NCBI RefSeq assembly: GCF_001048695.1
Contig: NZ_CVRB01000001.1
Span: 186,001 to 250,000, forward strand
Reading direction: 5' to 3'
DNA: 64,000 bases
Source: Neobacillus massiliamazoniensis
GTDB taxonomy: Bacteria > Bacillota > Bacilli > Bacillales > Cytobacillaceae
Shown here: positions 11,443-62,128 of the stretch, piece by piece
Position numbering within the stretch: position 1 is the stretch's first letter
Layout of the letters: each line of letters starts with the position of its first letter
Position numbers and translations under genes: made by a program
Notes under the pieces: generated by a model
Database searches by the model: none
Told to the model about the DNA's origin: nothing
The model's input: only the letters and a program-made list of their open reading frames with translations

Positions 11443-12228
11443 TTACATTTTAAGATATCCCCTAAAAATATCTTCAAGTCTATTTCTTCTATCCAATAAT
11501 AAATCCTTTAAATAGTCAATAGTAATTATACTAACAATATTTCCATCTCCTGTATTATAATTCGGGGATAGATAATTAAAAGTCGATTGAATATATTGTC
11601 TCTCTTCAACCTGTAGTTCCCCATCTTCATCAAGAAAAGCTTCATATAACTTTCCTTCAATTATTACTAATGATTCAAATATTTCCATTAACCTCCCAGC
11701 AGCTTCAGTCTTATAGACACTTACCTCTTTAAAATGTTCAAGTGCTTTAACTGTTCCGGTTAATGCTTTATAAATATCATCTCTTGCTCCATTTCCGGAA
11801 AACCCTTCATAAAAATTCCTTCCAAGAGTTTCATTAACTTTTGGTCCATTGGAAAACAATACTTCGTTCAAACGGTATGTTTCAATGTTGAAACCAGAAG
11901 AAACATATTTTAATCGATAAAAATCTTCCAAGAGCCCCCTCTTTTCAGTTGTAAATATTACCCAAGGCTTCTTAACAGCCTTTTTTATCTCAATAATGAG
12001 TGAAAAAGCTATCTCCTGGAATTTCTCTTCATCAATTTCCTTGTATTGAAAGGTTCTTGCAATTAAATCTATCTCTCTACCCTTTTGGTCATCTCTATCA
12101 ATATAATAGGAATTATGAATTACTCCCCATCCATTTCTTTTTAATGTATTTGAAATACTTAATTCAAGTGGAAATCCTGTATCTAACAAATCCTTTTTTA
12201 ACTTTTCAATTAACTCTGATTTTGACAT
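11443..12228 (-). CDS. PD-(D/E)XK nuclease-like protein
   Basis: A 261-residue protein starting at MSKSELIEK (AAGGGAG upstream). Residues about 25-75 give a restriction-endonuclease-like core: an N-terminal helix with LKRNGWGV, GREIDLIA carrying the metal-binding Asp, and then SLIIEIKKAVKKPW as the E-x-K strand. Such cores are found in Mrr-like and other nucleases. The C-terminal 150 residues are unrecognised. Its place in the accessory block makes it a candidate lysogen defence or exclusion gene; this is an inference. Confidence 0.65.
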   Translation of the reverse strand: MSKSELIEKLKKDLLDTGFPLELSISNTLKRNGWGVIHNSYYIDRDDQKGREIDLIARTFQYKEIDEEKFQEIAFSLIIEIKKAVKKPWVIFTTEKRGLLEDFYRLKYVSSGFNIETYRLNEVLFSNGPKVNETLGRNFYEGFSGNGARDDIYKALTGTVKALEHFKEVSVYKTEAAGRLMEIFESLVIIEGKLYEAFLDEDGELQVEERQYIQSTFNYLSPNYNTGDGNIVSIITIDYLKDLLLDRRNRLEDIFRGYLKM

Positions 12229-13693: not shown

Positions 13694-13780
13694 TTACTGA
13701 CATTGGCTGTTTAGCCATAAAATAAATGCTGCAAGTAGTACTAGTCCGAATGGTTTTGCTAATTCAATTAATAGTTTCAT
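13694..13780 (-). CDS. tiny membrane peptide
   Basis: 28 residues, MKLLIELAKPFGLVLLAAF at the start, essentially one hydrophobic helix, with AAGGA upstream. It fits in the gap between two genes on the same strand. Could be a real small protein; weak support. Confidence 0.4.
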   Translation of the reverse strand: MKLLIELAKPFGLVLLAAFILWLNSQCQ

Positions 13781-13940
13781 GTTTATCCTTTCTTTGGTGC
13801 GTAATATCATCCTCTAAGCCGTTCCAATCGATTGGTTCGGTCTCAGCGTTACATATTGGACACTTGCAGAAGGTGATGACCACGACGTCTAGAAACGTGT
13901 GGCCACATTCTTCATTCGTGCATACATATTCAATCACCAT
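13764..13940 (-). CDS. small zinc-ribbon protein
   Basis: 58 residues beginning MVIEYVCTNEECGHTF, then CKCPICNAE: two Cys pairs forming a rubredoxin-like zinc ribbon. The ATG at 13940 is preceded by GGTGAT. Phage early proteins of this type may bind nucleic acid or host enzymes. Function unknown. Confidence 0.65.
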   Translation of the reverse strand: MVIEYVCTNEECGHTFLDVVVITFCKCPICNAETEPIDWNGLEDDITHQRKDKHETIN

Positions 13941-22916: not shown

Positions 22917-23013
22917 TGGCGGGACTGCGTGGGAATCGAACCCACCAGACCTGGCACGCAGGTCTCAAGCAGTTTTGAAGACTGTGGGGGACACCAGTAC
23001 CCCATTCAGCCCC
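22917..23013 (-). tRNA. selC: tRNA-Sec(UCA)
   Basis: A 97-nt tRNA including an encoded CCA. Acceptor GGGGCTG pairs with CAGTCCC (one G-U), discriminator G. The D arm has a GGGG/CCCC stem, the anticodon stem CAGT/ACTG encloses CTTCAAA with anticodon TCA, the long variable arm AGACCTG/CAGGTCT is diagnostic for the Sec class, and the T stem is GTGGG/CCCAC with loop TTCGATT. The acceptor-plus-T region can be read as 8+5, with a weak A-G mismatch at position 8. The 3' end faces the integrase. Confidence 0.9.
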
Positions 23014-49217: not shown

Positions 49218-51839
49218 CTATTTTAACTTTTTCTGTAGCTCGTACAATAAATTAATGGCCTGAAGTGGTGTGATATCTAATAAATCTAGTTCTTTTATTT
49301 TCTCCAAAACTCGTTTTTCTTTTTGGGAATGCTCTTGTTTCTTTGGTTCCTTCGGTTCATCAAAGAATGATAGCTGTGCAGGCTGCTCCGATTGATTTTC
49401 ATCTTTTATTACTGGTGCTAGCTGCTCCTCTTTTTTTATTACTGGAGAAGGCTGAGCACTTGGCTGTTCCAATTCAGCTAATATCTCATTCGCCCGGTTA
49501 ATCAATTCCACGGGAAGCTCTGCCAGCTGTGCCACATGAATCCCGTAGCTCTTGTCAGCCGGTCCTTCTTTAATTTTATGAAGAAAAACAACTTTTCCTT
49601 GATGTTCAATCGCACTGACATGAACGTTCTTCAGCTTTGACAACTCTTCATCCAAAACGGTGAGTTCGTGATAATGTGTGGAAAAAAGTGTCTTTGCCCC
49701 GATTCGATTATGAATATATTCAATGATTGCCTGTGCCAGTGCCATTCCATCGTAAGTGGATGTTCCACGGCCGATTTCATCAAATAAAATCAAACTGTTT
49801 TGCGTTGCATTGGCAATGGCATTCTTTGCTTCGAGCATTTCCACCATGAACGTACTTTGTCCTGAAATCAGATCATCCGCTGCACCAATCCGTGTGAATA
49901 CTTGGTCAAAGATAGGCAGAACCGCTTCAGAGGCAGGAACATAACAGCCAATCTGTGCTAAAATCGCGGTCAGGGCAATTTGGCGCATGTAAGTACTCTT
50001 CCCGGACATGTTCGGACCCGTAATCAACAGAACTTCTCGGTCTTGATCCATTAAACAGTCGTTCGGGACATATTCCTGGGAATTCAATACCTTTTCAACT
50101 ACAGGATGTCTGCCATCCTTAACGGCAACGCGACGGTCTAAAGAGAATTGTGGCTTCACATAATGGCGTGCTTCACTCACTTCTGCAAAAGACTGAAGGA
50201 CATCAAGTTCACTTACGACTTTGGCTAAGGCTTGCAGACGCGGAATATATTCTTTTACAATTTCACGAATTTCGGTAAACAGCTCATATTCCAGCTCACC
50301 ACATTTTTCTTCAGCTTGTAAAATAAGCGCTTCTTTCTCTTTTAATTCCGGGGTAATAAACCGTTCCGCATTCGTTAGGGTTTGTTTCCGCTCATACTGC
50401 CCCTCTTCTAAGAGATGAAGGTTTGCTCTCGTGACTTCAATATAATAGCCAAAAACACGGTTATAACCCACCTTAAGTGATTTTATCCCGGTTTTCTCAC
50501 GCTCCTCCCGCTCCAATTGGGCAATCCATGTTTTCCCGTTTCTGCTCGCATCGCGATATTGATCTAGCTGGGCATTGTAGCCATCGCGGATGATGTTGCC
50601 TTCTTTTAGGGAAAGCGGTGGATTCTCAACAATCGCCTGCTCTAATAAGTCTGTTACCTCTTCACAAGGATCAAGCAACTCCACAATTTTTTCCATTTCT
50701 ACATTTTGAATACCTTGGAGGATTTGTTTTAAAAAAGGCACTTGCATTAAAGAACGATTTAATTGAACTAAATCACGGGCATTGACGTTGCCAAAAGCGA
50801 CACGCCCCGCTAATCGTTCTAAGTCATATACTTCTTTTAACTTTTCCCGCAATTCTTGGCGTTCGAAGTAAGACTGCAACAGGACCTCGACCAGGTTGTG
50901 ACGGTGCTCAATTGCGGCTTGGTCAATCAACGGACGGTCAATCCAAGCTTTTAGCATTCTACCGCCCATTGCCGTCATCGTGTCATCTAGCAGCCATAAT
51001 AACGAGCCTTTTTTCCCCTTCGAGCGAATGGTTTCCGATAGTTCGAGATTTCGCTTTGAAAAGTAATCAATTTTCATAAATTGATGAATTTGGTAGGTTG
51101 TTACTGGCTGAAGGTGGTCAAGACTCCTTTTTTGAGAACGGTATAAATAGTTAAATAGTCTTGCTACCGTTTGCTTTAATTTCTCCTGATTTATATCTTG
51201 AAGTAAATGAGAAAAATTCATTTCTAGTGAACTATTATCTTCAAAAGAAATGGTCAGAATATCGCGTTCCCGCATTTTCTTTTGCAATTCACCGTCAAAG
51301 CTGCTTGCGACTACTACTTCCTTGGCACTTAAAACAGCTAGTTCATTCAATACATCATCAAAATGATTGGAAAGTAAGGTGACACGGCTTTCACCTGTAG
51401 AGATGTCCGTATAGGAGAAACCAAATGTATGATCGTCAAAGGCAGTAATCGAGGCAATATAGTTATTCTCTTTGTCCGTTAACCCTTTGCCGTCCATTAC
51501 AGTTCCAGGTGTGATGAGCTGAACGACTTCGCGACGAACCATCCCTTTTGTCTGTTTTGCATCTTCCATTTGCTCGCAAATGGCAACCTTGTAGCCTTTG
51601 CTAATTAATTGTTCTATATAATTTGCAGCGGCATGGTACGGAACTCCGCACATCGGAATCCGTTCCTCCGCGCCGCCATCCCTGCTTGTTAAAGTGATCT
51701 CCAATTCTTGCGATGCTTTAATGGCATCGTCAAAAAACATTTCGTAAAAATCGCCCAAGCGAAAAAATAAAAAGGCATCTTGATAATCTGCCTTTACTTG
51801 TAAATATTGCTGTATCATCGGCGTATAAGCAGCAATCAT
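49218..51839 (-). CDS. mutS: DNA mismatch repair protein MutS
   Basis: About 873 residues from [14 protein letters not shown] (GGAGGTC upstream). Mismatch-binding domain with [16 protein letters not shown] (Phe-x-Glu), and ATPase domain with Walker [20 protein letters not shown] near 605, Walker [17 protein letters not shown], and STHYHELT. The C-terminal tail ends with a PIKKL-like helix. It is the first gene of mutSL. The neighbour cotE seen in B. subtilis is replaced by the accessory island. Confidence 0.96.
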
Positions 51840-52005
51840 AATGACCTCCAAATATTCAACATTTCGATTATCTTCGACATCCCATTATATCACAAACTCC
51901 GGGTGTCAGGCACCCGATCTTCATTTAAGTGCATATTGGATGGAATTTATTATTGACGTTTCTAGAAAATCTTATTATAATAATAATCGTCCCTTTTATT
52001 TATAT

Positions 52006-52079
52006 GTCCCAGTAGCTCAGCAGGATAGAGCAACAGTTTCCTAAACTGTAGGTCGGAGGTTCGAATCCTCTCTGGGACG
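52006..52079 (+). tRNA. tRNA-Arg(CCU)
   Basis: A 74-nt tRNA: acceptor GTCCCAG / CTGGGAC, D arm AGCTCAGCAGGATAGAGCA, anticodon stem ACAGT / ACTGT around TTCCTAA with anticodon CCT, T arm TCGGAGGTTCGAATCCTCTC. No encoded CCA. It is the likely attachment site for the following island, which starts with an integrase. Confidence 0.93.
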
Positions 52080-52087
52080 CTATTTAA

Positions 52088-52160
52088 AGAAAACGCTATG
52101 TTATCGAATTGTTTACCGTTCAATCAAACGGGACAATAACGTGACATAGCGTTTTTTTTC
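52088..52160 (+). terminator. terminator after tRNA-Arg
   Basis: ACGCTATGT pairs with ACATAGCGT, with an inner hairpin ATTGTTTACCGTT / AAACGGGACAAT, then eight T. An unusually long two-storey terminator. Confidence 0.75.
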
Positions 52161-52165
52161 GTTAG

Positions 52166-52217
52166 CTGTAGGACGTGGTTTTTATGACTGTAGGACTTAT
52201 TTCGGTAACTGTAGGAC
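52166..52217 (+). repeat. array of CTGTAGGAC every 21-22 bp before int
   Basis: CTGTAGGAC begins at 52166, 52188 and 52209, between the tRNA terminator and the integrase. It may be integrase arm sites, or the same kind of periodic array as at 23728 and 47151. Confidence 0.8.
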
Positions 52218-52252
52218 ACCTCGGCGGCATCTAAGGAGGATTTAGAAATCGC

Positions 52253-53287
52253 ATGAAACGTAAATTTATCAGTGAAAGAGGTCCTAAAGCTTCGTCTCAG
52301 GACCGACAGATTAGTAATGTCCTATATACCATTGATGAAGCATTACAAATGTTTATACGAGCTAAAACGGCTGAAGGTGTCCGACCCGGAACTATTAAAG
52401 GGTACCACGAGATTTTCCGTTATTTCCGACAATGGTTAGACGATGACATTATGTATATCCACGAAATCTCTGCAGACACCATTCGTAATTACATTAATTA
52501 TCTAAGAACTGAAAGAACTCCTTATGCTGAAGATCCGAAACGAAAGCGAAATGGTAAGAGATTATCGGTTTATACGATTAACATTCGTATTCGTGGTTTA
52601 AGCACGCTGTTTCGATTTCTTTTTAACGAAGGTATTATTCCGATTAATCCTATGAAGAATATATCGCAAGTTCGAGACGATGCCCACGAAGAGGTACCAG
52701 GTATACCAGACAAACAGATTGACGCTATTCTCGCCTCTTATGACGATAGACAGTTCGCTCAGTGGCGTGATAAAACGCTGATATTATTGTTGCTGGATAC
52801 TGGTCTTAGAATTAATGAAGCACTATCCTTAACGGCGGATCAAGTGAACTTCAAGGAATTGTCAATTACAGTCCTTTCCCAAATCGCTAAGAATCGAAAG
52901 TCCCGTGAGATTCCAATTAGTCGTGAGGTTGCGAAAAGATTGCGACAACTATTAGACGAGACACAGCAATATTTTGGAGAAGACTGTAAAATATTCATGA
53001 ACGCATTTGGTGAAGACTTCACGGCAGATGCATTTAGGCGTAGATTAAATCGACTTAAACCAAAACTAAACATTCCAAAATTGCACCCACATATGTTTCG
53101 TCATACCTTTGCTCGAAATTATGTATTGAACGGCGGTGACATCTTTACGTTACAACGAATTTTGGATCATGCTGACATAAAGACGACCCGTAAATACGTA
53201 CAAATGGATAGTGAGCATATTCGAGAGCAACACAATAAATTTTCTCCATTACGTAACATTATAAAACGGAATGGTATCAGAATATAG
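52253..53287 (+). CDS. XerD-like tyrosine integrase of the island
   Basis: A 344-residue tyrosine recombinase: SAM-like N-terminal domain (LQMFIRAKTAEGVRPGTIKGYHEIFRYF), catalytic domain with Arg in LLLDTGLRINEALSL, His-x-x-Arg in HPHMFRHTFARNYVL, late His in LDHADIKTT, and Tyr in RKYVQMD. The start follows AAGGAGGA. It lies 174 nt from tRNA-Arg and is probably the island integrase. Confidence 0.93.
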   Translation: MKRKFISERGPKASSQDRQISNVLYTIDEALQMFIRAKTAEGVRPGTIKGYHEIFRYFRQWLDDDIMYIHEISADTIRNYINYLRTERTPYAEDPKRKRNGKRLSVYTINIRIRGLSTLFRFLFNEGIIPINPMKNISQVRDDAHEEVPGIPDKQIDAILASYDDRQFAQWRDKTLILLLLDTGLRINEALSLTADQVNFKELSITVLSQIAKNRKSREIPISREVAKRLRQLLDETQQYFGEDCKIFMNAFGEDFTADAFRRRLNRLKPKLNIPKLHPHMFRHTFARNYVLNGGDIFTLQRILDHADIKTTRKYVQMDSEHIREQHNKFSPLRNIIKRNGIRI

Positions 53288-53290
53288 GTG

Positions 53291-53320
53291 GGGCCGTCCA
53301 TTTGGGCGGCTTTTTACTTT
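53291..53320 (+). terminator. terminator after island integrase
   Basis: GGCCGTCCA-TT-TGGGCGGCT stem and TTTTT. Confidence 0.75.
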
Positions 53321-53336
53321 TGTTATATCACTAGAA

Positions 53337-54124
53337 AAACTCTACGAAACTTGGAAGACGTAATAACTTACGATATTTCACACGACACTTAACCGGTTCT
53401 ATAAAGGCGAAATCCTTCTCTTCTCGTATCACTGGCTTAGCGTAAATGCCTTCTAGCAAACGGCTGCACACCGAGTTCCATTACTCCTGCATAGTTCCCA
53501 TCTTCGAACGTTAACAGCCACCCGAAATCTGTTTTACGATATCCAACGACGAACACGTCCGCATAATGATAGTTGACCACCTTCAGCCACGAATGTGATC
53601 GTTTACCGACTTCATACCGTGAATCCTTACGCTTTAAGACTATGCCCTCAAGGGCTTGTGCCTTTATAGCGACAAAATAAGCTTCACCGTGCCCTTCAAC
53701 GAATTGCGTCTTAGTGATTAACGATCTACTGGCACAATGTCCTCAAGTAATTCCTTTCGCTCAAGCAAAGGCATATTTGTGATCTATTTACCTTCTTGTC
53801 CCAAAACATCAAAGGCGACATAGGTAATCGGTGTCTTATCCATAGAACTCATAAACCGACTCATTAAGGCTTCAAAGTCAGGTTTACCCTGTTTATCACT
53901 TACGATTAACTCGCCGTCAAGAACGGTTCCTGCAGAAATACCTAGGTTGTGAAGTTCGGGGAATTTCGAAGTAATTTCGTTCTTATGCCGTGAATACAAA
54001 CTGACTTTTTCATCTTTATCAACAGAAATATGACACGGATGCCGTCCAATTTTAGTTCCGTAATGTAATCATCGGAATCGAACGGTTTATCCGTTTTATG
54101 CAATAGCATTGGAGATATAAACAT
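53337..54124 (-). pseudogene. decayed ATP-dependent DNA ligase
   Basis: Pieces in several frames make up a LigB-like phage/Bacillus ligase: MFISPMLLHKTDKPFDSDDY, ELKLDGIR (motif I Lys), SRHKNEIT, VLDGELIVS (motif III), YVAFDVLGQEGK, then EGIVLKRKDS (motif IV), and SWLKVVNY (motif V) and a beta-barrel rest. At least two frameshifts and stops (around 54000, 53730 and 53470) make it inactive. Homologues are SPbeta-type ligases. Confidence 0.8.
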
Positions 54125-54218
54125 ATTAAACACCTCACTGCTATTCTATCAGAATCAGAATATTATATTAATTGAAATGCAAGGAACGCTCTATTTACTT
54201 AGAGGGTCAAACAGCTGA

Positions 54219-55106
54219 TTATTTATCCTTAATGGACTTTGTATTTAGAGGATTAAAATCAATGTATGGGATTGTATTGTTATTACTTCCATCATAATCA
54301 ACTACTCTAGGAAAAAAAGGAATTTTGCCAATGGTTTCCGAAAAGATCCAAGGTCTAACTTTACCTTTTACAACATAATATATTTCCTCCTTATCAACAA
54401 CTAACGCAGCATCGCCAGCAACCATTACTAATCCTGCAATCTTAACAACCCCTTGATCAATAACTTCCATATCAAGGACCGTAATTTCATTTGTTGCAAA
54501 TTTAGGATCAAATCGTCTGATTTCCTTAATAGCCCAGCCAGGAAGAAAGCCATCTTCAACATCTGCTTTTATTAGGACTTTTCCTGCATAGTAATCGTAA
54601 CTAACTCCTTCAGGTAAATCACTTTCAAGTATATTATGTGTAGCAGTAAAGAAGTCTTTTCCATCCGATCTTTTTAGTTTTATGTTTAAGAAATATAAAT
54701 TACCATTTTCAATCCTATATTCTATAAGTTGATCTAACATACGAAATGGGATTGCTCCGTGTTTAGATTTGATTGTTAATGGACCGATTACCATTGAGGA
54801 TTGCGTACCTTTCTCAATAAAAATTTGATCGGTTTTTTCGTTTGTATCTTGGATTCTCTTTATTTTTTTCCATTCATATAACTTTTCATCACTTATTTCT
54901 AATCGACCATGGTGTACATATGAATGACAAGTAGGACAAATTGCTATCATATCATCTGCGTTATGAACTTTATAAACAGCCCAATCTTTAATATGATGAA
55001 TTTCATATCTGTATGTAACAGGACATCCAGGGTTTGCGCATTTATTCCCTGCCTCTTTAATTAGTTTTCTCTTTTTGCTAGGTGGTACTGTTCGACTTTC
55101 AGCCAA
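54219..55106 (-). CDS. HNH endonuclease with unknown C-terminal domain
   Basis: A 295-residue protein. N-terminal HNH: CANPGCPVTYRYEIHHIKDW ... AICPTCHSYVHHGRL (metal Cys pairs and catalytic HH). The rest (residues 100-295) is beta-rich with NGNLYFLNIKLKRSDGKDFF and ends VVDYDGSNNNTIPY. HNH nucleases with such a partner domain are common in defence islands. Function beyond nuclease unknown. Confidence 0.8.
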   Translation of the reverse strand: MAESRTVPPSKKRKLIKEAGNKCANPGCPVTYRYEIHHIKDWAVYKVHNADDMIAICPTCHSYVHHGRLEISDEKLYEWKKIKRIQDTNEKTDQIFIEKGTQSSMVIGPLTIKSKHGAIPFRMLDQLIEYRIENGNLYFLNIKLKRSDGKDFFTATHNILESDLPEGVSYDYYAGKVLIKADVEDGFLPGWAIKEIRRFDPKFATNEITVLDMEVIDQGVVKIAGLVMVAGDAALVVDKEEIYYVVKGKVRPWIFSETIGKIPFFPRVVDYDGSNNNTIPYIDFNPLNTKSIKDK

Positions 55107-55247
55107 ATTTGATTACCTCACTCCATTTTGTTATAAATCCCTTAACAATTATAGGATTACTTAGTAAATAATTACAACAAAGAAGCATTGTAAAGCTAAT
55201 GAAATGTGTTTAATTTCAATCCTATTAACTTGTTCACCAACTTGTCG

Positions 55248-55274
55248 AAAGGGATAAACGTCCTTTTGTCGAAT
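55248..55274 (+). promoter_or_regulatory. SigH-like promoter
   Basis: AAAGGGATA, 11 bp, GTCGAAT. It precedes the pseudogene at 55299 by 24 nt, as the matching promoter at 8835-8861 precedes its intact paralogue. Confidence 0.5.
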
Positions 55275-55298
55275 ACCTCGATAAAGAGAGAGGTGTAT

Positions 55299-55572
55299 GA
55301 TGACTAGGTTGTTTACTGTTCATTGAGCAAAAGCTGAAATTAAACGATTGCAGCATTATGTAGATTTAGTGGAGTCTTACGAAGCAGATACGTTGGACCG
55401 GGCGATAATTAAGGAATACACATAAACGAATAGCATTGAAAAGGTAACTAAAAATTTGAATATTGATCGAGAGTACGCTACTAAAGTGTTAAAACGTCCA
55501 GGAGCCGACGAACTACATAAAATAATGTACTCAGGATACATTATAAAAACAAAACCGCATAGGCATCGTTAA
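55299..55572 (+). pseudogene. nonsense copy of the 8544-8810 gene
   Basis: The frame encodes KRLQHYVDLVESYEADTLDR, IIKEYT, stop, TNSIEKVTKNLNIDREYATK and DELHKIMYSGYIIKT, a clear relative of the prophage protein at 8544-8810. It has TGA near codon 10 and TAA in the middle (about 55423), so it is inactive. It has the same SigH-like promoter as the prophage gene. Confidence 0.85.
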
Positions 55573-55929
55573 TTAAAGCATCATTTCGGAAGTGCTTTTT
55601 TTATTCATCGATTCGTTTCATGTAATACATGCTTATTGGAAATGCTAAAATAGGTTTGCTATACATTGACTTATGCCTGGTGAAAAAATCATCTGCGGGT
55701 GGTTTTTTTGGAAAACTTGGTAAATGAAATAATTATATTTAGATATGAAAGAGGGTGGAAAGTGGACAAAAAAGAAAAAAGACCGCCATTTTGACGATCC
55801 GCTTGTTAAACTAAAGCACCCTTAGTACTACTAGAAAAAACCTTCCTGTTGGATGTTTTTTTTATCATCCAATAACCACGATGATAGATTGACGAGATTG
55901 ATTTCAGCCGTTGCCATTTAATTGGCTTT
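55573..55929. other. gap with terminator and a possible repeat relic
   Basis: A terminator follows the pseudogene (AAGCATCATTTCGGAAGTGCTTTTTTT, 55577-55603 approximately). At 55660-55690 TATACATTGACTTATGCCTGG weakly resembles the middle of the ~93-bp repeats at 57857-60098. Nothing else recognised. Confidence 0.35.
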
Positions 55930-57678
55930 TTATGCTTCTCTAATTTGAGATAAACAAAAAAGGACATGGATTACCAAATCTGCGTTTGACTGGTTAAAAG
56001 TATTTAAACTGCTTAATCCGTGACAGATAGAATTCCTCAGATTAAATCCTCTTGAATCCGTAAATAAAACTTTAAAGTATAGTTTAGCATCTTCGCCAAA
56101 CACGCTTTCAATAATCGAATCATTTAGAATATCACCGAATAATTTCACCCGGAAACCGCCGTTCTTTGATGGTTTAAGTACAGTTCCACCAGTTAGGGTT
56201 ATTAATCTTCGAAATGCATTCTCGATTTGGGGAATTAATATATGCATTGATGAAATGAAATCCTTTTCAAAGTAAAATTCCAGACCTTTAAGAATAAGCT
56301 CCCTTCTTTCTTCATCAAATACTGGAGATTCCATTAATAACGCAAGCAACGATTCAGATTTCAACTCATGATATTCCTGAAACCTTTCTATTACCCTTCT
56401 CAGAAAAATAGATTGTATGGACAGATTTTGCGTAATTAGGTGAATAATGTTACCTTCCAAATCCTCCTCTAATGGCCCTATTGTAGCTACGGTTCTACCC
56501 TCGCTATCCATAAGTGATGTTGAAAAGGAAAATGAAATTGGATATTTTTTAGATACATCTACCAATTGTTCTTTGGCCTGGTCTTTTCGTGGGATAAAAT
56601 ATCCGGCAATTTTTGCTGAATCTACTTTAATATCACCCTTAACAAAGTTACTTGTAAATTGTTGAATTTGCTCCTCCGTTATTTTTATTGAAGTGGAGAT
56701 AGTTTTTAAATTGCCTTTAACTTTAGGGCCGATTTTAACTAACTCTTTTCTTATTTCTATAGCATCATCGCTTAATTGAAATTGTTGAAAAAGCTCATGT
56801 AAATGTTCTAACCAACCTTGAATTTGCATTGGAGCTGCATTGATAAATTGTTTTTCATATTCGTTTTTTAAGACAAACAATACTCTTCTTACATCACTCT
56901 TATTATTTTGCCTTAGATAAAAACTTCCTAATCTAATAACAGCTGCTTCAACACTCCAAGGGTCTGGGGTCTTATTATTAACAAGTCTCTCAACTCGGCC
57001 TTCCAATTCCTCTATTATTCTATTAATTTCATCATTACTTAAATTTAATTTATATTTTTTGTACAATAAATCATAAGAAAAACCCCATAATCCTGGTTTC
57101 TCATCAATCGCAATATTTTGCTCGGTTTTAAATATAGTTTGTTTTACTTCTTCAATTCTCCTAGAATCCTTTAAACTTACAGCTAAATCTAAAGCTCTTT
57201 CTAATTTTTTGATGACATTTATTTCATAAATGTATAGTTCTTCCTCTGCTATTCTTATATTATTGTCAATAACTATATGGGCTATTGAGTGACTTGGGTT
57301 CTTACCCGTTATTTGTCTCGAAAACTCCCAAACCAAGTCAGCATATCTGGACTTAAAGATCGGATTGTGTGCGTTCTCAGCTCTTTGCTCCCAATATTGA
57401 ATCATATAACTGTCAACTTCACTAATGCTTGGGTATACAGTAACAGTTCCGTCTTCATTACTGAAAATAAATTTAGGACCATAATAGGTTCCCCACCCAC
57501 TATCCTTATCAGTGTAATCATCAGAAAAATCAAAAGCCATCGCTTCACATTTAACAGTGAAAGTATCTTCAGTTTTTTCAAAAGTATTTTTAATTAATGT
57601 TGCTATTTCATATTCAGATATTTTGTTTCTTTCTTTTTCAAGATTGTTTAAAAAACATTCAATTGAATTGTTACTCAT
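55930..57678 (-). CDS. DUF4209 / HEPN-like protein
   Basis: A 582-residue protein. N-terminal two thirds are helical (DLVWEFSRQITGKNPSHSIA, NIRIAEEELYIYEINVIKKLERALDLAV). The C-terminal domain is of DUF4209 type: SMHILIPQIENAFRRLITLTGG, KLFGDILNDSIIESVFGEDAKLYF, and FNLRNSICHGL with an R-x4-H motif (RNSICH) like HEPN ribonucleases. HEPN RNases act in many abortive defence systems, so a defence role is plausible but not shown. GGAGGTTATC precedes the start. Confidence 0.75.
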   Translation of the reverse strand: MSNNSIECFLNNLEKERNKISEYEIATLIKNTFEKTEDTFTVKCEAMAFDFSDDYTDKDSGWGTYYGPKFIFSNEDGTVTVYPSISEVDSYMIQYWEQRAENAHNPIFKSRYADLVWEFSRQITGKNPSHSIAHIVIDNNIRIAEEELYIYEINVIKKLERALDLAVSLKDSRRIEEVKQTIFKTEQNIAIDEKPGLWGFSYDLLYKKYKLNLSNDEINRIIEELEGRVERLVNNKTPDPWSVEAAVIRLGSFYLRQNNKSDVRRVLFVLKNEYEKQFINAAPMQIQGWLEHLHELFQQFQLSDDAIEIRKELVKIGPKVKGNLKTISTSIKITEEQIQQFTSNFVKGDIKVDSAKIAGYFIPRKDQAKEQLVDVSKKYPISFSFSTSLMDSEGRTVATIGPLEEDLEGNIIHLITQNLSIQSIFLRRVIERFQEYHELKSESLLALLMESPVFDEERRELILKGLEFYFEKDFISSMHILIPQIENAFRRLITLTGGTVLKPSKNGGFRVKLFGDILNDSIIESVFGEDAKLYFKVLFTDSRGFNLRNSICHGLSSLNTFNQSNADLVIHVLFCLSQIREA

Positions 57679-57856
57679 GATAACCTCCTTGTAATTATAA
57701 AATTTCAGATAAATTACTTACTAAATTTATAATACACCCAATAGAATTTTTATGTAATAGATGCTCCCCGAGATATCCGTTTCTGAAAAAATTTTTTAAA
57801 ACGAATTTGGCTGCATAGACAGATTGATTTCATAGAAACGGTAGGAGTTTGGCTCG

Positions 57857-57950
57857 CCAAGGTTTCGAGATTTAACGTTAATGTGTGCGTTACACCAGGC
57901 ACATATCAATATACATATGGGATCGTTGTTTGTGATAGGATGGCCCCCAG
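57857..57950 (-). repeat. ~93-bp repeat, copy A
   Basis: Plus-strand reading: AAGGTTTCGAGATTTAACG ... GCGTTACACCAGGCACATAT ... TGTGATAGGATGGCCCCC. Related copies are at 58829-58920 and 60008-60098. It lies just past the 3' end of the gene at 57993. Contains GTGC ... GCAC hairpin arms. Confidence 0.7.
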
Positions 57951-57992
57951 AAAAGACCGCTCTATTCACTCAAAACAATTTTTCTGTTTGGA

Positions 57993-58412
57993 TTAGTATT
58001 GTTCTATTCTACCTTCAAAAACTAATACCTCGTTTAAAAAACGACGACTCATATTTCTTCTCCTGACATTTCTGTTATTATTTCCATTTACATCCATACC
58101 ATGAAACTTTTTTGCTGCCAATGCTAGCCTTATAAATCTGGGATCTTTCCTCAATCTATCGTAATCCCTTTTATTGAGTCTACCCCAAACATCTTTACCT
58201 TGATAGATGTCACCATTTTCATGAAGCTTTAAGTCTCTTCTATTTAGACAATGTCCGTGCGGAACAGAAGGAAAAGGATCGTGATCATACTTATGAAACT
58301 CCCACTTCATATTTTCCATTTCGTAATTAGGACGATATTTAGTTGGTCTAGAAATGTTGCATTTCTGAAAACTTTGTTTTATGTTTTTCCTTCTAAAATA
58401 CATCTTTCTCAT
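57993..58412 (-). CDS. basic hypothetical protein with PHGH motif
   Basis: A 139-residue basic protein: KYRPNYEMENMKWEFHKYDH, then DPFPSVPHGHCLNRRDLKLHENGDIYQGK and DYDRLRKDPRFIRLALAAKK. The PFPSVPHGH ... DLKLHENGDIYQGKD stretch looks like a conserved compact domain (His-rich loop followed by a strand) but I cannot name it. The C-terminus is strongly basic. In a defence-rich island it might be an effector or partner of the DUF4209 gene; no evidence. Confidence 0.6.
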   Translation of the reverse strand: MRKMYFRRKNIKQSFQKCNISRPTKYRPNYEMENMKWEFHKYDHDPFPSVPHGHCLNRRDLKLHENGDIYQGKDVWGRLNKRDYDRLRKDPRFIRLALAAKKFHGMDVNGNNNRNVRRRNMSRRFLNEVLVFEGRIEQY

Positions 58413-58495
58413 TATATACCTCCGATGTTTTGTAATATGTAGATATTACTATTATTTATATGTCTATAAGCCAGATCGAGATTAATTACAACGAG

Positions 58496-58712
58496 TTAGC
58501 GAATTTCATTTGAAGCTTTTTTCGCTTTATTGCATAGCAGCTCGTACTTTTGTTCATACAGGCTGACCTGTTTAGTGCACCTCTTACGTTAAACTTATCT
58601 TGACATAATCTAACCATTTCGCTATTAGCATTATTTTTTCCTGCCCTGTATGAGAACCGTATGTTTGATAGTACTTTCTCGTCGTGTTCATTGATCGTTT
58701 TACCGCCACAAA
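58496..58712 (-). pseudogene. frameshifted small gene remnant
   Basis: Minus strand frames give INEHDEKVLSNIRFSYRAGK, SEMVRLCQDKFNVRGALNRS, and, after a one-base shift, LYEQKYELLCNKAKKASNEI ending in TAA at 58496. No start codon is present. It is a broken C-terminal part of an unknown gene. Confidence 0.5.
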
Positions 58713-58717
58713 CAATA

Positions 58718-58745
58718 AAAAAGAGCCCACTGATTGTAGGCCCCC
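58718..58745 (-). terminator. terminator-like hairpin
   Basis: Minus strand GGGCCTACAATC / AGTGGGCTC stem then TTTTTTATTG. Confidence 0.5.
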
Positions 58746-58828
58746 GAAATTTCCGAGTTAAAAAAGGATTTTTTACTTAAGATAAAATCGATTTAATCAG
58801 GATAGGTGACTTCTCTCTAGTTAATTGT

Positions 58829-58920
58829 TCAAGGTTTCGAGATTTTAACAACCATGCGTGCATTACGCTAGGCAAACCCCATATGAAATGCCTCTTCCGT
58901 TTATGATCCAGTGGCCTCCC
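58829..58920 (-). repeat. ~93-bp repeat, copy B
   Basis: Plus-strand reading: AAGGTTTCGAGATTTTAACA ... GCATTACGCTAGGCAA ... TTATGATCCAGTGGCCTCCC. It overlaps the last codons and stop of the RepL-like gene (58901). Confidence 0.7.
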
Positions 58921-59323
58921 CGTATAATTCAAGGATCCGGTCATCTTCATTTAAGTAGAAGCGTGGTTCTAAACCATTCTCTGTTACCAACCGATCAAAA
59001 TCCTCTCGATTATTAAATCTAGTATCTGAGTTTCCAACATAAAAAAGATGTGGGTTGACCATAAAACCATTTGGACATTTAGCTATAAATTGTTTTTCAC
59101 ATAACCTTTTAATTGATTTGGAGACACCTCCTTTGTCAATGCTTAGGCTTTCAGCAATTTGTTTCTGTTTTATATAAGCTATGTTGTCATCGTACTTCAT
59201 TTGTCCACACAGGAAAAATAGGATTTTATAATCTGAACCACGGAATTCTGGATCTTGTAAGTGTTGGAACCATTCCAAAATGAAGGCCCCCCAATAAACC
59301 ACCTTTTCACTTCTTCTGGCCAT
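58901..59323 (-). CDS. RepL-like winged-helix protein
   Basis: A 140-residue protein from MARRSEKVVYWGAF (AGGAGCG upstream). The region SDYKILFFLCGQMKYDDNIAYIKQKQIAESLSIDKGGVSKSIKRLCEKQFIAKCPNGFMVNPHLFYVGN, read here in pieces, is a winged helix of the plasmid RepL family with its strand FMVNPHLF. RepL starts replication of small plasmids; in an island it could support excised-element replication or act as a regulator. Confidence 0.75.
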   Translation of the reverse strand: MARRSEKVVYWGAFILEWFQHLQDPEFRGSDYKILFFLCGQMKYDDNIAYIKQKQIAESLSIDKGGVSKSIKRLCEKQFIAKCPNGFMVNPHLFYVGNSDTRFNNREDFDRLVTENGLEPRFYLNEDDRILELYGEATGS

Positions 59324-59597
59324 TATCAACGCTCCTTTTGTTGTCATTATTGCAACTTTTATTGTCTTATTATCAATATTTTAATATTTTGTTGAATAAA
59401 GGACAACTTAATGTTGGTTATTTTACAACTTTTATAAAGAGTCCATTGAGGGTAAATGCCTATAAAATCAACATTTCAAGGCCATTTTTTTCTTATTGTA
59501 TGCCTCGTCATATATATAGGGATGAAATACAATGGGTACAAGCAATAATCAAACCTATTTCCAATAGGTCATTATCATAAAATTTGAGGTGTTGTAT
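59324..59597. other. gap before small membrane gene
   Basis: No gene supported; promoter regions for the two divergent genes are expected. Confidence 0.3.
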
Positions 59598-59807
59598 ATG
59601 AAAATCTGGAACTTTTTGCAACAACGTTTTGGTTGGATTGGAGTAGTTTTAACCTTTTTAGTTGCGGCATTTCCAAAAGCGTTCGCCAAAATAGGAGCGA
59701 CTATTAAATTCTTAGTTGTAGGTTATTGGTTGCAAATGAGTGTGTTAACGATTATTCTCCTGCTTTTATTCGTTTCTCGACTTTTATTGAAACAACAAAA
59801 AGGCTAA
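59598..59807 (+). CDS. small two-TM membrane protein
   Basis: 69 residues from MKIWNFLQQRFGWIGVVLTF (GAGGTG upstream): two membrane helices (GWIGVVLTFLVAAFPKAFA and MSVLTIILLLLFVSRLLLK). Divergent from its neighbours with a strong terminator of its own. No family recognised. Confidence 0.6.
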   Translation: MKIWNFLQQRFGWIGVVLTFLVAAFPKAFAKIGATIKFLVVGYWLQMSVLTIILLLLFVSRLLLKQQKG

Positions 59808-59854
59808 CCCGATTGATTATTAGCTATGTTAACTAACTTTCTAAAGATGTTATA

Positions 59855-59895
59855 AACGTTACTGTATAAGTAGAGTTATACGGTAACGTTTTTGT
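59855..59895 (+). terminator. terminator after small membrane gene
   Basis: AACGTTAC-TGTATAA ... TTATACG-GTAACGTT stem followed by TTTTGTG. Confidence 0.85.
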
Positions 59896-60007
59896 GTTTT
59901 TGTAAATTAAGCAATACCAAAGGTCTTTGGCTTCCTCTATCGTTACCGTTTGATCGTATCCAAAATAAACTTAGGTCATTTATACCTTAAATTTGGTAAG
60001 CCATTAT

Positions 60008-60098
60008 CAGGGTTTTGAGATTTCGTTTTCACGTTCGTCCACCACTAGGTACCTGTTGATATAGCTTGGGGGTGTTTTTTTGTGATAGGGTAGCCCTC
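60008..60098 (-). repeat. ~93-bp repeat, copy C
   Basis: Plus-strand reading: GGGTTTTGAGATTTCGTTTT ... ACCACTAGGTACC ... TTGTGATAGGGTAGCCCTC. More diverged than A and B. It lies between the small membrane gene and the 3' end of the HNH gene (60176). Confidence 0.65.
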
Positions 60099-60175
60099 TT
60101 AGCTGGATCACAATTTTACCTTTGGAGACAAAACGAAAAGCGAACCGTTTACTGGGTCGCCTGTTGTTTAACTTA

Positions 60176-61039
60176 TTAAACAAATAATTCCTTTAATTGA
60201 TTAACAGAAAGCCACGGTCTTTTTCGGTGCAACATACTGTGACAATTAGAACAAACAAGGGCAATGTCTTCTACTTTTGTTTCCTCGTCTTCTCCCATTT
60301 CGGAAATAGGTTTTGTATGATGACCTTCTATGTAACCATCACCAATTTCTCCATAACGTGCTTTAAAATCAAATTTGCAAACTTCACATATTAATTTTCC
60401 GTGCCTTTGTAGAAAACGTTCCATAGCTAGTTTAATAACCTCGGGGTTTCGTTCCCTAGCTAAATGCTGTTTTAATTTTAATTTACCTTCTGGGAATCCT
60501 TCTTCATCATCAGTAAAACCTATACGATCAGCTTCGTTAAGTTTTCTCATTACATTTCCAACGGTAGTAAATCCATATTCTAGAATTGCAGTTACTTCAG
60601 TATCAGTTATACCTTTTCCTGAAACAATGCTATTTTTAAATAGTACACCTATATCACTTAAATATACAGGGTTATTAAACGATTGAAAATCAGATAAGAT
60701 AATACAACCTATTTCACTTAAATCTACATTATTTCCAAACATATCTTGTCTTCTAGCAATAAATCTTTCCTTGCTTCCGTCACCGTTAGCTTTTCCATAT
60801 TTATCCCAACCTTCATCAACTGTTAATTTCTCAAATCTTTCAAATATAGCTCTACCCATCACCGCTCTTTCCCCAGATACCCCCAATTCATTTTTAACTA
60901 GAAAAAAGAACGGCTCCCCCTGTGTAAGCACGTTAAAGTTATTAGTATTTTTACGGGTAAAGTTTACTTCAGTAAGGTTATCCAAACCAGATAAATACGT
61001 AAACCATTCCCTTGAAGTAACACCAATATAACCCCTCAT
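60176..61039 (-). CDS. HNH endonuclease with PUA/EVE-like N-terminus
   Basis: A 287-residue protein from MRGYIGVTSREWFTYLSG (GAGGTG 5 nt upstream). N-terminal part, VNFTRKNTNNFNVLTQGEPF, FFLVKNELGVSGERAVMGRAI, resembles PUA/EVE-like base-reading domains. C-terminal HNH: CEVCKFDFKARYGEIGDGYIEGHHTKPISEMG, LVCSNCHSMLHRKRP. This arrangement is that of McrA-like type IV restriction enzymes that cut modified DNA. Downstream of the NucS-like gene by about 60 nt. Confidence 0.75.
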   Translation of the reverse strand: MRGYIGVTSREWFTYLSGLDNLTEVNFTRKNTNNFNVLTQGEPFFFLVKNELGVSGERAVMGRAIFERFEKLTVDEGWDKYGKANGDGSKERFIARRQDMFGNNVDLSEIGCIILSDFQSFNNPVYLSDIGVLFKNSIVSGKGITDTEVTAILEYGFTTVGNVMRKLNEADRIGFTDDEEGFPEGKLKLKQHLARERNPEVIKLAMERFLQRHGKLICEVCKFDFKARYGEIGDGYIEGHHTKPISEMGEDEETKVEDIALVCSNCHSMLHRKRPWLSVNQLKELFV

Positions 61040-61101
61040 CCCTGCACCTCTGTTTATAACATTAATTTTTGTCAAAAAGGTCGAATATGGTAAATTTCCG
61101 A

Positions 61102-62016
61102 TTAAATCACGTCCAACTTCCACCCAAATATTTTGACGAAAATATTTTCCTTTTTGGCAGTAAGCAATTCATCTTCAAAATATGGAAGTATTCCTGGACA
61201 TACAACTAAACCTTTTATATTTGAGTAACCTAATTCATCCTCGCATAACCTCATATAATGTTTTAATTGTTGTTTGACTTCACGCCCAATTCTGTCCTTT
61301 TTAATTTCAACAACAATAATTTCGTCATTCAAAGTATCCTTTAGGAGCAAATCTAGTCTAGATTCATCAGAAAATACATGTTGCTGCTTTAAAAGCTTAA
61401 GTCCCTCACCTAATATTTCAGGATTGCTTGCAATATATTTTTCTATATCTCTTTCAAGCACATGAAAAACTTCCTCTGTCGACAATAGCCTATTATTCAA
61501 CCTTCCTTTCTTTTCATTTCCCTTTATTAAAACTAATAAAAGCGTTATGTCGCTTACATTTAATTCTTTCCAAGTTCTAAGTGCAGAAGAAATAGCTGCT
61601 AGGGTTGTTTGATCCGCGTTAAGTTTAGCTGGTCTTGAGAGTTGTTTTAACAAACCTTCATTTAACTCAAGAGGTATCTCTAATACCTTAGAACGAATAG
61701 GATTTCCAAATACAATTGTTTCATTTATATTTAAATCACTTATCTTTTTCTTAAGATGTGGGTTATTATATTTGTCAATAATTAAAGGGTCATCTAATAA
61801 GTTTTTCACAAGGTGTACTTCTTCAACAAAATAATAGGCTGTTATATACCGCTTGTCGTAAATAGTTTTATGAAAAAATAGATAATCACCCTTATTAACA
61901 CCTAAAAGTTTCTCCCCATTTAATTTTAAATCTCCATAAGTTAACTCCTGAAACATTGGATCTTCATGGCTATTATTTTTTTCAGGGTCTACGTAACCAA
62001 TCAGATAACTTGCCAT
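61102..62016 (-). CDS. PUA-like + NucS-type nuclease
   Basis: A 304-residue protein. Residues 1-90 (SYLIGYVDPEKNNSHEDPMF, LKLNGEKLLGVNKGDYLFFH, YFVEEVHLV) look like a PUA/EVE-like fold; residues 200-304 are a NucS/DUF91-type nuclease: ESRLDLLLKD (metal Asp), IIVVEIKKDRIGREVKQQLK (E-x-K and Gln). Followed by the HNH gene that has a similar N-terminal domain. Likely a DNA-modification-dependent restriction pair. Confidence 0.7.
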   Translation of the reverse strand: MASYLIGYVDPEKNNSHEDPMFQELTYGDLKLNGEKLLGVNKGDYLFFHKTIYDKRYITAYYFVEEVHLVKNLLDDPLIIDKYNNPHLKKKISDLNINETIVFGNPIRSKVLEIPLELNEGLLKQLSRPAKLNADQTTLAAISSALRTWKELNVSDITLLLVLIKGNEKKGRLNNRLLSTEEVFHVLERDIEKYIASNPEILGEGLKLLKQQHVFSDESRLDLLLKDTLNDEIIVVEIKKDRIGREVKQQLKHYMRLCEDELGYSNIKGLVVCPGILPYFEDELLTAKKENIFVKIFGWKLDVI

Positions 62017-62128
62017 ACTCTCAACCTTCCTTTAATTGGTATCTATACTCCTAATATAACAAAAAATTAATAAGATTAGTTTAATTAATTGTTTAAATGG
62101 AAATGATGTTATGGAGGTGATGCAGGGT

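Follow-up and report, generated by a model that had tools for sequence, protein, structure and literature searches.

Direct repeats as probable borders of gene cassettes in tRNA-associated islands of Neobacillus

A family of repeats of about 90 bases, here called R, probably serves as the border sites of mobile gene cassettes; it lies in plasmid-like islands, many of which are integrated at tRNA genes. Three copies lie in the window, the 64,000-nucleotide stretch of the Neobacillus massiliamazoniensis genome analysed here (contig NZ_CVRB01000001.1, positions 186,001 to 250,000), for which an earlier note had proposed either cassettes bordered by recombination sites or a family of structured 3' RNAs. 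Sequence comparison argues for the first of these readings: further arrays were found, one cassette recurs in varied contexts, two related arrays look like a filled and an empty version of each other, and ancestry appears to change near the core of the repeat.

The three repeats of the window are real. Copies A, B and C were all recovered by the family model, and all of them lie on one strand (Table 1). Plain BLAST with copy A against its own genome detected copy B with E = 0.0018 and copy C only with E = 6.25; copy C is secured by the family model, which was itself built with copy C. A close relative of copy A in another species was matched with E = 1.3e-21 (BLAST), so R is not a chance match. 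The end and core strings quoted in the earlier note are complete in copy A, and in copy B they hold for the left end and the core, while the right end of B reads TTATGATCCAGTGGCC. Copy C deviates from them, carrying GTTTTGAGATTT, CCACCACTAGGTA and GTGATAGGGTAGCCC. As had been claimed, each copy is located at the 3' end of a minus-strand ORF (cassette genes 1 to 3), and copy B overlaps the end of its gene by 17 bases, which include the stop codon. In the surrounding genome of 5.6 Mb, the family model finds 10 R copies.

Table 1 Features of the island in the window and of its R array (locus own1). Positions are those of the window unless a contig is given.
Feature	Position	Strand	Remarks
tRNA-Arg(CCT)	52006..52079	+	left end of the island; its 3' end is repeated as 47 bp ~21 kb rightward, beyond the window
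Tyrosine integrase of the island	52253..53287	+	Pfam Phage_integrase 3e-36; far under the integron-integrase cut-off
Partial Q copy (second site family)	55769..55826	+	nhmmer 5.5e-07; own1 11770-11827, position converted
Gene left of copy A, DUF4209 protein	55930..57678	-	PADLOC candidate defence family PDC-S39
LE element	57763..57851	+	nhmmer match own1 13764-13852, position converted to window
R copy A	57857..57947	+	nhmmer family match 2.1e-23; LE element at left
Cassette gene 1, 139 aa	57993..58412	-	without Pfam or PADLOC match
R copy B	58829..58917	+	nhmmer 1.8e-14; overlaps stop codon of cassette gene 2, on its right
Cassette gene 2, 148 aa, RepL-like winged-helix protein	58901..59347	-	Pfam 5.7e-07
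R copy C	60007..60096	+	nhmmer 2e-16 (model includes copy C); without LE match beside it
Cassette gene 3, HNH endonuclease	60176..61123	-	G290 DNA right of an R copy aligns, 77% over 555 bp
NucS-like nuclease	61102..62016	-	very similar G022 protein comes after its own R copy
Fourth R copy of the own1 array	G000:C1:250591-250680, just beyond the window		at the 3' end of a serine resolvase gene

The own1 island has a length of about 21 kb, from tRNA-Arg(CCT) to the 47-bp repeat of the tRNA end. The gap between tRNA and integrase gene (52079-52217) contains inverted and direct repeats (I1, D20), which are perhaps integrase arm sites. Between copies B and C, at 59589-59807, there is a plus-strand ORF for a strongly hydrophobic protein of 72 aa, which had no Pfam match at the cut applied and might be a small membrane toxin; behind the ORF comes an inverted repeat (ACGGTAACG...CGTTACCG). 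Elsewhere in the window, a selenocysteine tRNA gene was detected at 22921-23013 (Rfam, 65.4 bits).

The consensus of R is about GTCAAGGTTTCGAGATTTGACGTCCATGTGTGCGTTACACCAGGCA..ATGTCGATAT..CAT..GGGG....TTTTGTGATAGGGTGGCC, with a length of ~90 bases, and CAYYAGGCA is its best conserved stretch. The core contains an imperfect inverted repeat (CATGTGYGC, 7-9 bp, GGCACATG), the highest-scoring one being centred on the spacer TTACACC; it is the best-scoring of many positions, chosen without a null. Many R copies have a second element, LE, on their left, mostly 8-57 bp off and 5-8 bp from copy A. LE is ~88 bp long with an A/T-rich middle and ends formed by a C-run and a G-run, and 20 of its 22 matches have an R to their right, two being without. 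As paralogues, LE and R show a weak likeness, with 1 of 100 shuffles scoring as well.

The distribution of R was determined with a sequence-only model built from 20 copies. It matched 10 of 61 Neobacillus genomes, own included, some of these matches being weak or partial; among genomes at least 90% complete and at most 5% contaminated, 3 of 39 had a match. One R genome outside those three, that of N. drentensis JC05, is a complete chromosome. Under filters stricter than those of the genus search, R was found in 2 of 397 genomes of an order-wide sample (own and G290) and in 2 of 398 of a class-wide sample (own and one partial match, G544). BLAST with copy A gave matches in 4 of 100 genomes, own included, and an exact-pattern search found it at five places across four named genomes, of which Bacillus sp. 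EB600 was an addition. BLAST matched none of 50,697 phage records and none of 72,556 plasmid records, and viral contigs gave no match to the exact pattern, which would miss many copies. Further copies, whose lack the earlier note would have counted against its proposal, thus exist in related genomes, and genus members with R arrays include N. drentensis JC05 (locus dren) and N. pocheonensis KCTC 13943 (poch loci).

We fetched 17 loci, each oriented by its R. A tRNA gene or fragment lies beside the R array in nine of them: ARAGORN detected a tRNA gene in seven, and own2 and poch2 have a tRNA-Leu fragment left of the array. In the fetched stretches of the remaining eight no tRNA was seen. The tRNA targeted is Arg-CCT in own1 and eb600, Arg-TCT in poch1, dren and isl_b, and Leu-CAA in own2, own3, own4 and poch2, and the integrases at these loci are of the own1, poch1, own2 and poch2 kinds, with own4 having none. 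A 1.8-kb remnant flanked by two tRNA-Leu repeats (L027:8282-10096) consists of LE, a SUKH-family gene, R and a DUF2750 gene; no integrase was seen in it.

All 42 R matches in these loci are on the orienting strand. After removal of two weak ones, 40 copies were kept, and 13 of the 17 loci hold 2-4 of them. Neighbouring copies share their orientation in every one of the 23 pairs in these 13 loci; direct repeats between diverse cargo genes, a criterion for integrons, are therefore a property of the R arrays. An ORF of at least 100 aa starts within 400 bp to the right of 29 of the 40 copies and has its 3' end toward R in 23 cases, while three of the remaining six are resolvase genes at array ends. 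Over the whole inter-R intervals gene strand is mixed (21 minus and 17 plus ORFs), eight of the plus ORFs belonging to spore-germination-like operons of N. pocheonensis (function by eye).

One gene family (175 aa in isl_a; without Pfam match) recurs in five arrays, with different neighbours each time: in poch3, isl_a, dren and eb600 it is enclosed by two R copies, and in poch4 it adjoins one. In three arrays the aligned DNA of this family stops at most 2 bp from the right end of the next R, a coincidence that is weak on its own because R itself is conserved. The related arrays dren (N. drentensis) and poch3 (N. pocheonensis) look like a filled and an empty site: poch3 has a single R between the 175-aa-family gene and a resolvase, and dren has, after an R, an extra 283-aa gene and a decayed R, then a resolvase of the same type. 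The right half of the decayed R reads TAGGCACAT...TTTTATGATATTGTAGCC, and the alignment to poch3 resumes inside it. The profile search missed it. A half-site scan covering 1.11 Mb put it third among candidate places outside known copies; its score thus does not single it out, though its placement is as expected. Some joins are beside R, as a gene sits between LE and R in own4 compared to own2. Two joins at R cut a gene short, an integrase in own3 and a resolvase in eb600 (by eye).

Furthermore, R copies seem to differ in ancestry to the left and right of the core CAYYAGGCA. Pairs were chosen by a fixed rule of at least 100 bp of alignable context, under which eight pairs share their left side, 15 their right side and none both. 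Left-sharing pairs had excess identity in columns 1-12 (p 0.008) and 25-41 (0.74 vs 0.57, p 0.006), no excess in columns 13-24 and no significant one right of column 42. Right-sharing pairs had excess identity in columns 75-92 (0.77 vs 0.64, p 0.004) and, against expectation, also in columns 1-12 (p 0.007), with no significant excess in columns 13-74. These p values from permutation tests are rough, since pairs overlap and are not independent. Compared to the hand-picked groups used earlier, the fixed rule weakened the p value for left-sharing pairs and brought out the unexpected signal in columns 1-12. This signal in right-sharing pairs, which a shared LE element may explain, is together with the missing excess in columns 13-24 of left-sharing pairs unlike a single clean crossover. 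A half-site in poch4 is 85% identical to its partner left of the core and 27% right of it, with the break at AGGCAC. The change from left- to right-linked identity at the core suggests site-specific exchange there.

We infer that a site-specific recombinase recognises R as double-stranded DNA and that strand exchange would take place at the core or just right of it. The DNA between two direct R copies would then be excised as a circle that carries a single R and could integrate at a further R elsewhere. The conserved middle of R and its lack of a hairpin make an enzyme acting on double strands likelier than an IntI-like one. A core with an inverted repeat is the usual layout for a tyrosine recombinase, and the imperfect inverted core of R suggests an enzyme of this kind; the choice draws on this core and on the analogy with a second site family, Q (see below). 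As a tentative first guess, the R recombinase could be an island-encoded or host Xer-like tyrosine enzyme.

R, together with LE, might alternatively be a small dispersed repeat (MITE or intergenic) that accumulates at the ends of island genes, ordinary deletion and insertion giving the cassette-like patterns. The diversity of the copies (mean column identity 68%, 20 copies), the joins beside R and the genes truncated at R are in line with this, and so is the search for a dedicated enzyme, in which none of three recombinase types (window integrase, poch1-type integrase, own1-type resolvase) was present in all ten R genomes among 61 genomes. We nevertheless regard a dispersed repeat as unlikely, given the shared orientation in 23/23 neighbouring pairs, the ancestry changes near the core and the filled/empty pair. 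R also has no clear terminal inverted repeat, as 18 of 100 shuffles reach the score of R against its own reverse complement. The co-occurrence search for these three types found the window integrase type in 2/10 R genomes vs 9/51 others (four of these nine at 83-87% identity), the poch1 type in 4/10 vs 6/51 (p 0.049) and the own1-type resolvase in 7/10 vs 16/51 (p 0.032). The last figure would fit R being a res-type site for the small serine resolvase whose gene neighbours the final R in many arrays, and R has a length like that of some res sites. In own1, own2, poch3, isl_a and g022 the final R and a resolvase gene are direct neighbours; in dren and g290 one gene intervenes. A res site lies upstream of the gene of the resolvase that binds it, and R is at the 3' end of the resolvase gene in own1 and poch3 and upstream of it in isl_a and g022. 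We find this reading quite improbable, because two different resolvase types occupy the same position and each has another conserved upstream site, unlike R by eye: isl_a-type resolvases have an inverted site directly upstream (TTGACACC...GGTGTCA), and own1-type ones (own1, poch3, dren) have an upstream stretch of their own. The own1 type also occurs in 16 genomes without an R match. A res site for R is accordingly not favoured.

The position of R after stop codons would suit the second proposal of the earlier note, a structured 3' RNA, or else a terminator. This reading did not survive the analysis and is rejected as very improbable: Rfam did not match R at the gathering score across the window, and did not do so in 51800-62100 with the limit relaxed to an E of 5, no consensus structure was found for R among 20 copies, and neither R (36 copies) nor LE (20 copies) folds better than shuffles on either strand. 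The fold energies of the 36 R copies against dinucleotide shuffles have a mean z of 0.04 on the plus and 0.16 on the minus strand. Moreover, the alignment shows by eye that some cassettes have their own terminator-like hairpin, placed between the gene and R. An integron attC site would have the same position 3' of cassette genes, in direct repeats and in arrays. The ends of attC are formed by the motifs RYYYAAC/GTTRRRY, which were not seen by eye in R, and R is conserved in its middle, not at the ends alone. Three array-associated integrases scanned with TIGR02249 scored 66.7, 52.5 and 56.2 bits against a cut-off of 265, so none of these is an integron integrase. attC is described as folding to a hairpin from one strand (PMC2727003), whereas R folds no better than shuffles, which makes it probably neither attC nor a structured RNA; on this fold test the attC identity is rejected, and its chance appears negligible.

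The preferred reading, R as a cassette border, has a parallel in the site family Q, which was first met beside own1-type resolvases at loci without R (G031, G040, G045). In Q, a terminator-like hairpin (by eye) is flanked by two dif-like cores, TTCAACTAA-N7-9-TTAGTTYAA. The two families are alike in position and orientation in related loci, between cargo genes and in partly mosaic arrays, whereas their sequences are unrelated and Q is far commoner, with BLAST detecting it in 58/61 genus genomes (at most about 14 candidates scored per genome) and the R model matching 10/61. The two families are adjacent in own2, isl_a and eb600. Among 72,556 plasmids, 65 have Q matches, one of them at as many as 22 places, and none of 50,697 phage records has any; a short pattern located it in four stretches of viral contigs. 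Its orientation is the same in 78/78 copies on one 314-kb contig of the own genome (G000:C5, loci L121-L136) and in 73/73 copies on 300 kb of one chromosome (G036:C1:5460001-5760000, L106-L120). The ORFs to the right of Q are minus in 46/54 and 51/61 cases compared to 0.76 and 0.72 at random positions, a mild excess, and strand bias of replication or transcription could add to the one-way orientation. The layout of Q among mostly minus-strand genes is superintegron-like, here in a Gram-positive genus.

In two plasmids, of Mesobacillus foraminis (NZ_CP033045, L099) and Peribacillus frigoritolerans (NZ_CP085396, L098), small genes of diverse kinds follow one another in long series and almost all share a strand. 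Q sites separate many of these genes, and the fetched stretch has a tyrosine recombinase toward its left end. Two tyrosine recombinases were noted near plasmid Q arrays. P0002 has relatives in 37 plasmid records, mostly of Geobacillus/Parageobacillus. Of the relatives of P0001, two are close (100 and 94%) and come from Q-rich plasmids, and the others are more distant (47% or less) and come from other plasmids, part of which were checked for Q; P0001 is a candidate for the recombinase acting on Q. A 32-base Q half-site overlaps dfrK in at least ten staphylococcal/mammaliicoccal plasmids among 60 matches listed. In pKKS627 (L103), the one examined, it is located at the 3' end of dfrK. A Q half-site also lies ~110 bp upstream of a TetR-qacH pair in plasmids of Enterococcus, Paenibacillus and Priestia (L101, L102, L104).

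Integrons of Gram-negative bacteria are the main known setting of large cassette arrays. It may be speculated, with a confidence somewhat short of even, that Bacillota own at least one integron-independent system of cassette capture, in which tyrosine recombinases use the rare R and the very common Q as double-stranded attachment sites and assemble one-way arrays, with up to dozens of cassettes, in chromosomes, islands and plasmids, and that some resistance genes now present in other genera bear Q because they were drawn from such arrays. If this is true, soil bacilli would have, in a separate cassette system, a second way of gathering genes as modules, here with nucleases and candidate defence genes, and some Gram-positive plasmid resistance genes, such as dfrK with its Q match, would have a testable origin.

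Among the titles and abstract openings listed, with preprints and most subscription papers outside this search, none described such cassette arrays in Bacillaceae. Among known systems, the res/six sites of small serine resolvases, of ~90-120 bp, are similar to R in length, in having several conserved blocks and in their place beside resolvase genes; R differs in that both resolvase types examined beside it have conserved upstream sites of another kind. In pdif/Xer modules, XerC and XerD arms flank a 6-bp spacer in sites of ~28 bp, and R differs from these by its ~90 bp and by its sequence. R and the pdif modules agree in that genes are bordered by double-stranded recombination sites, candidate ones in the case of R, with no need for a dedicated integrase in cis; the pdif sites of Acinetobacter plasmids are described as being used by XerC/XerD (PMC7399989). 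The arrays of diverse cargo genes, with direct repeats at the 3' side of the genes, are shared with integron cassettes and their attC sites, from which R differs by the lack of a single-strand fold, by its conserved middle and by three nearby integrases that are not of the integron type. R is cassette-border-like, yet fails the integron tests run (hairpin, integrase), and looks like the recombination site of an undescribed gene-shuffling system other than a classical integron.
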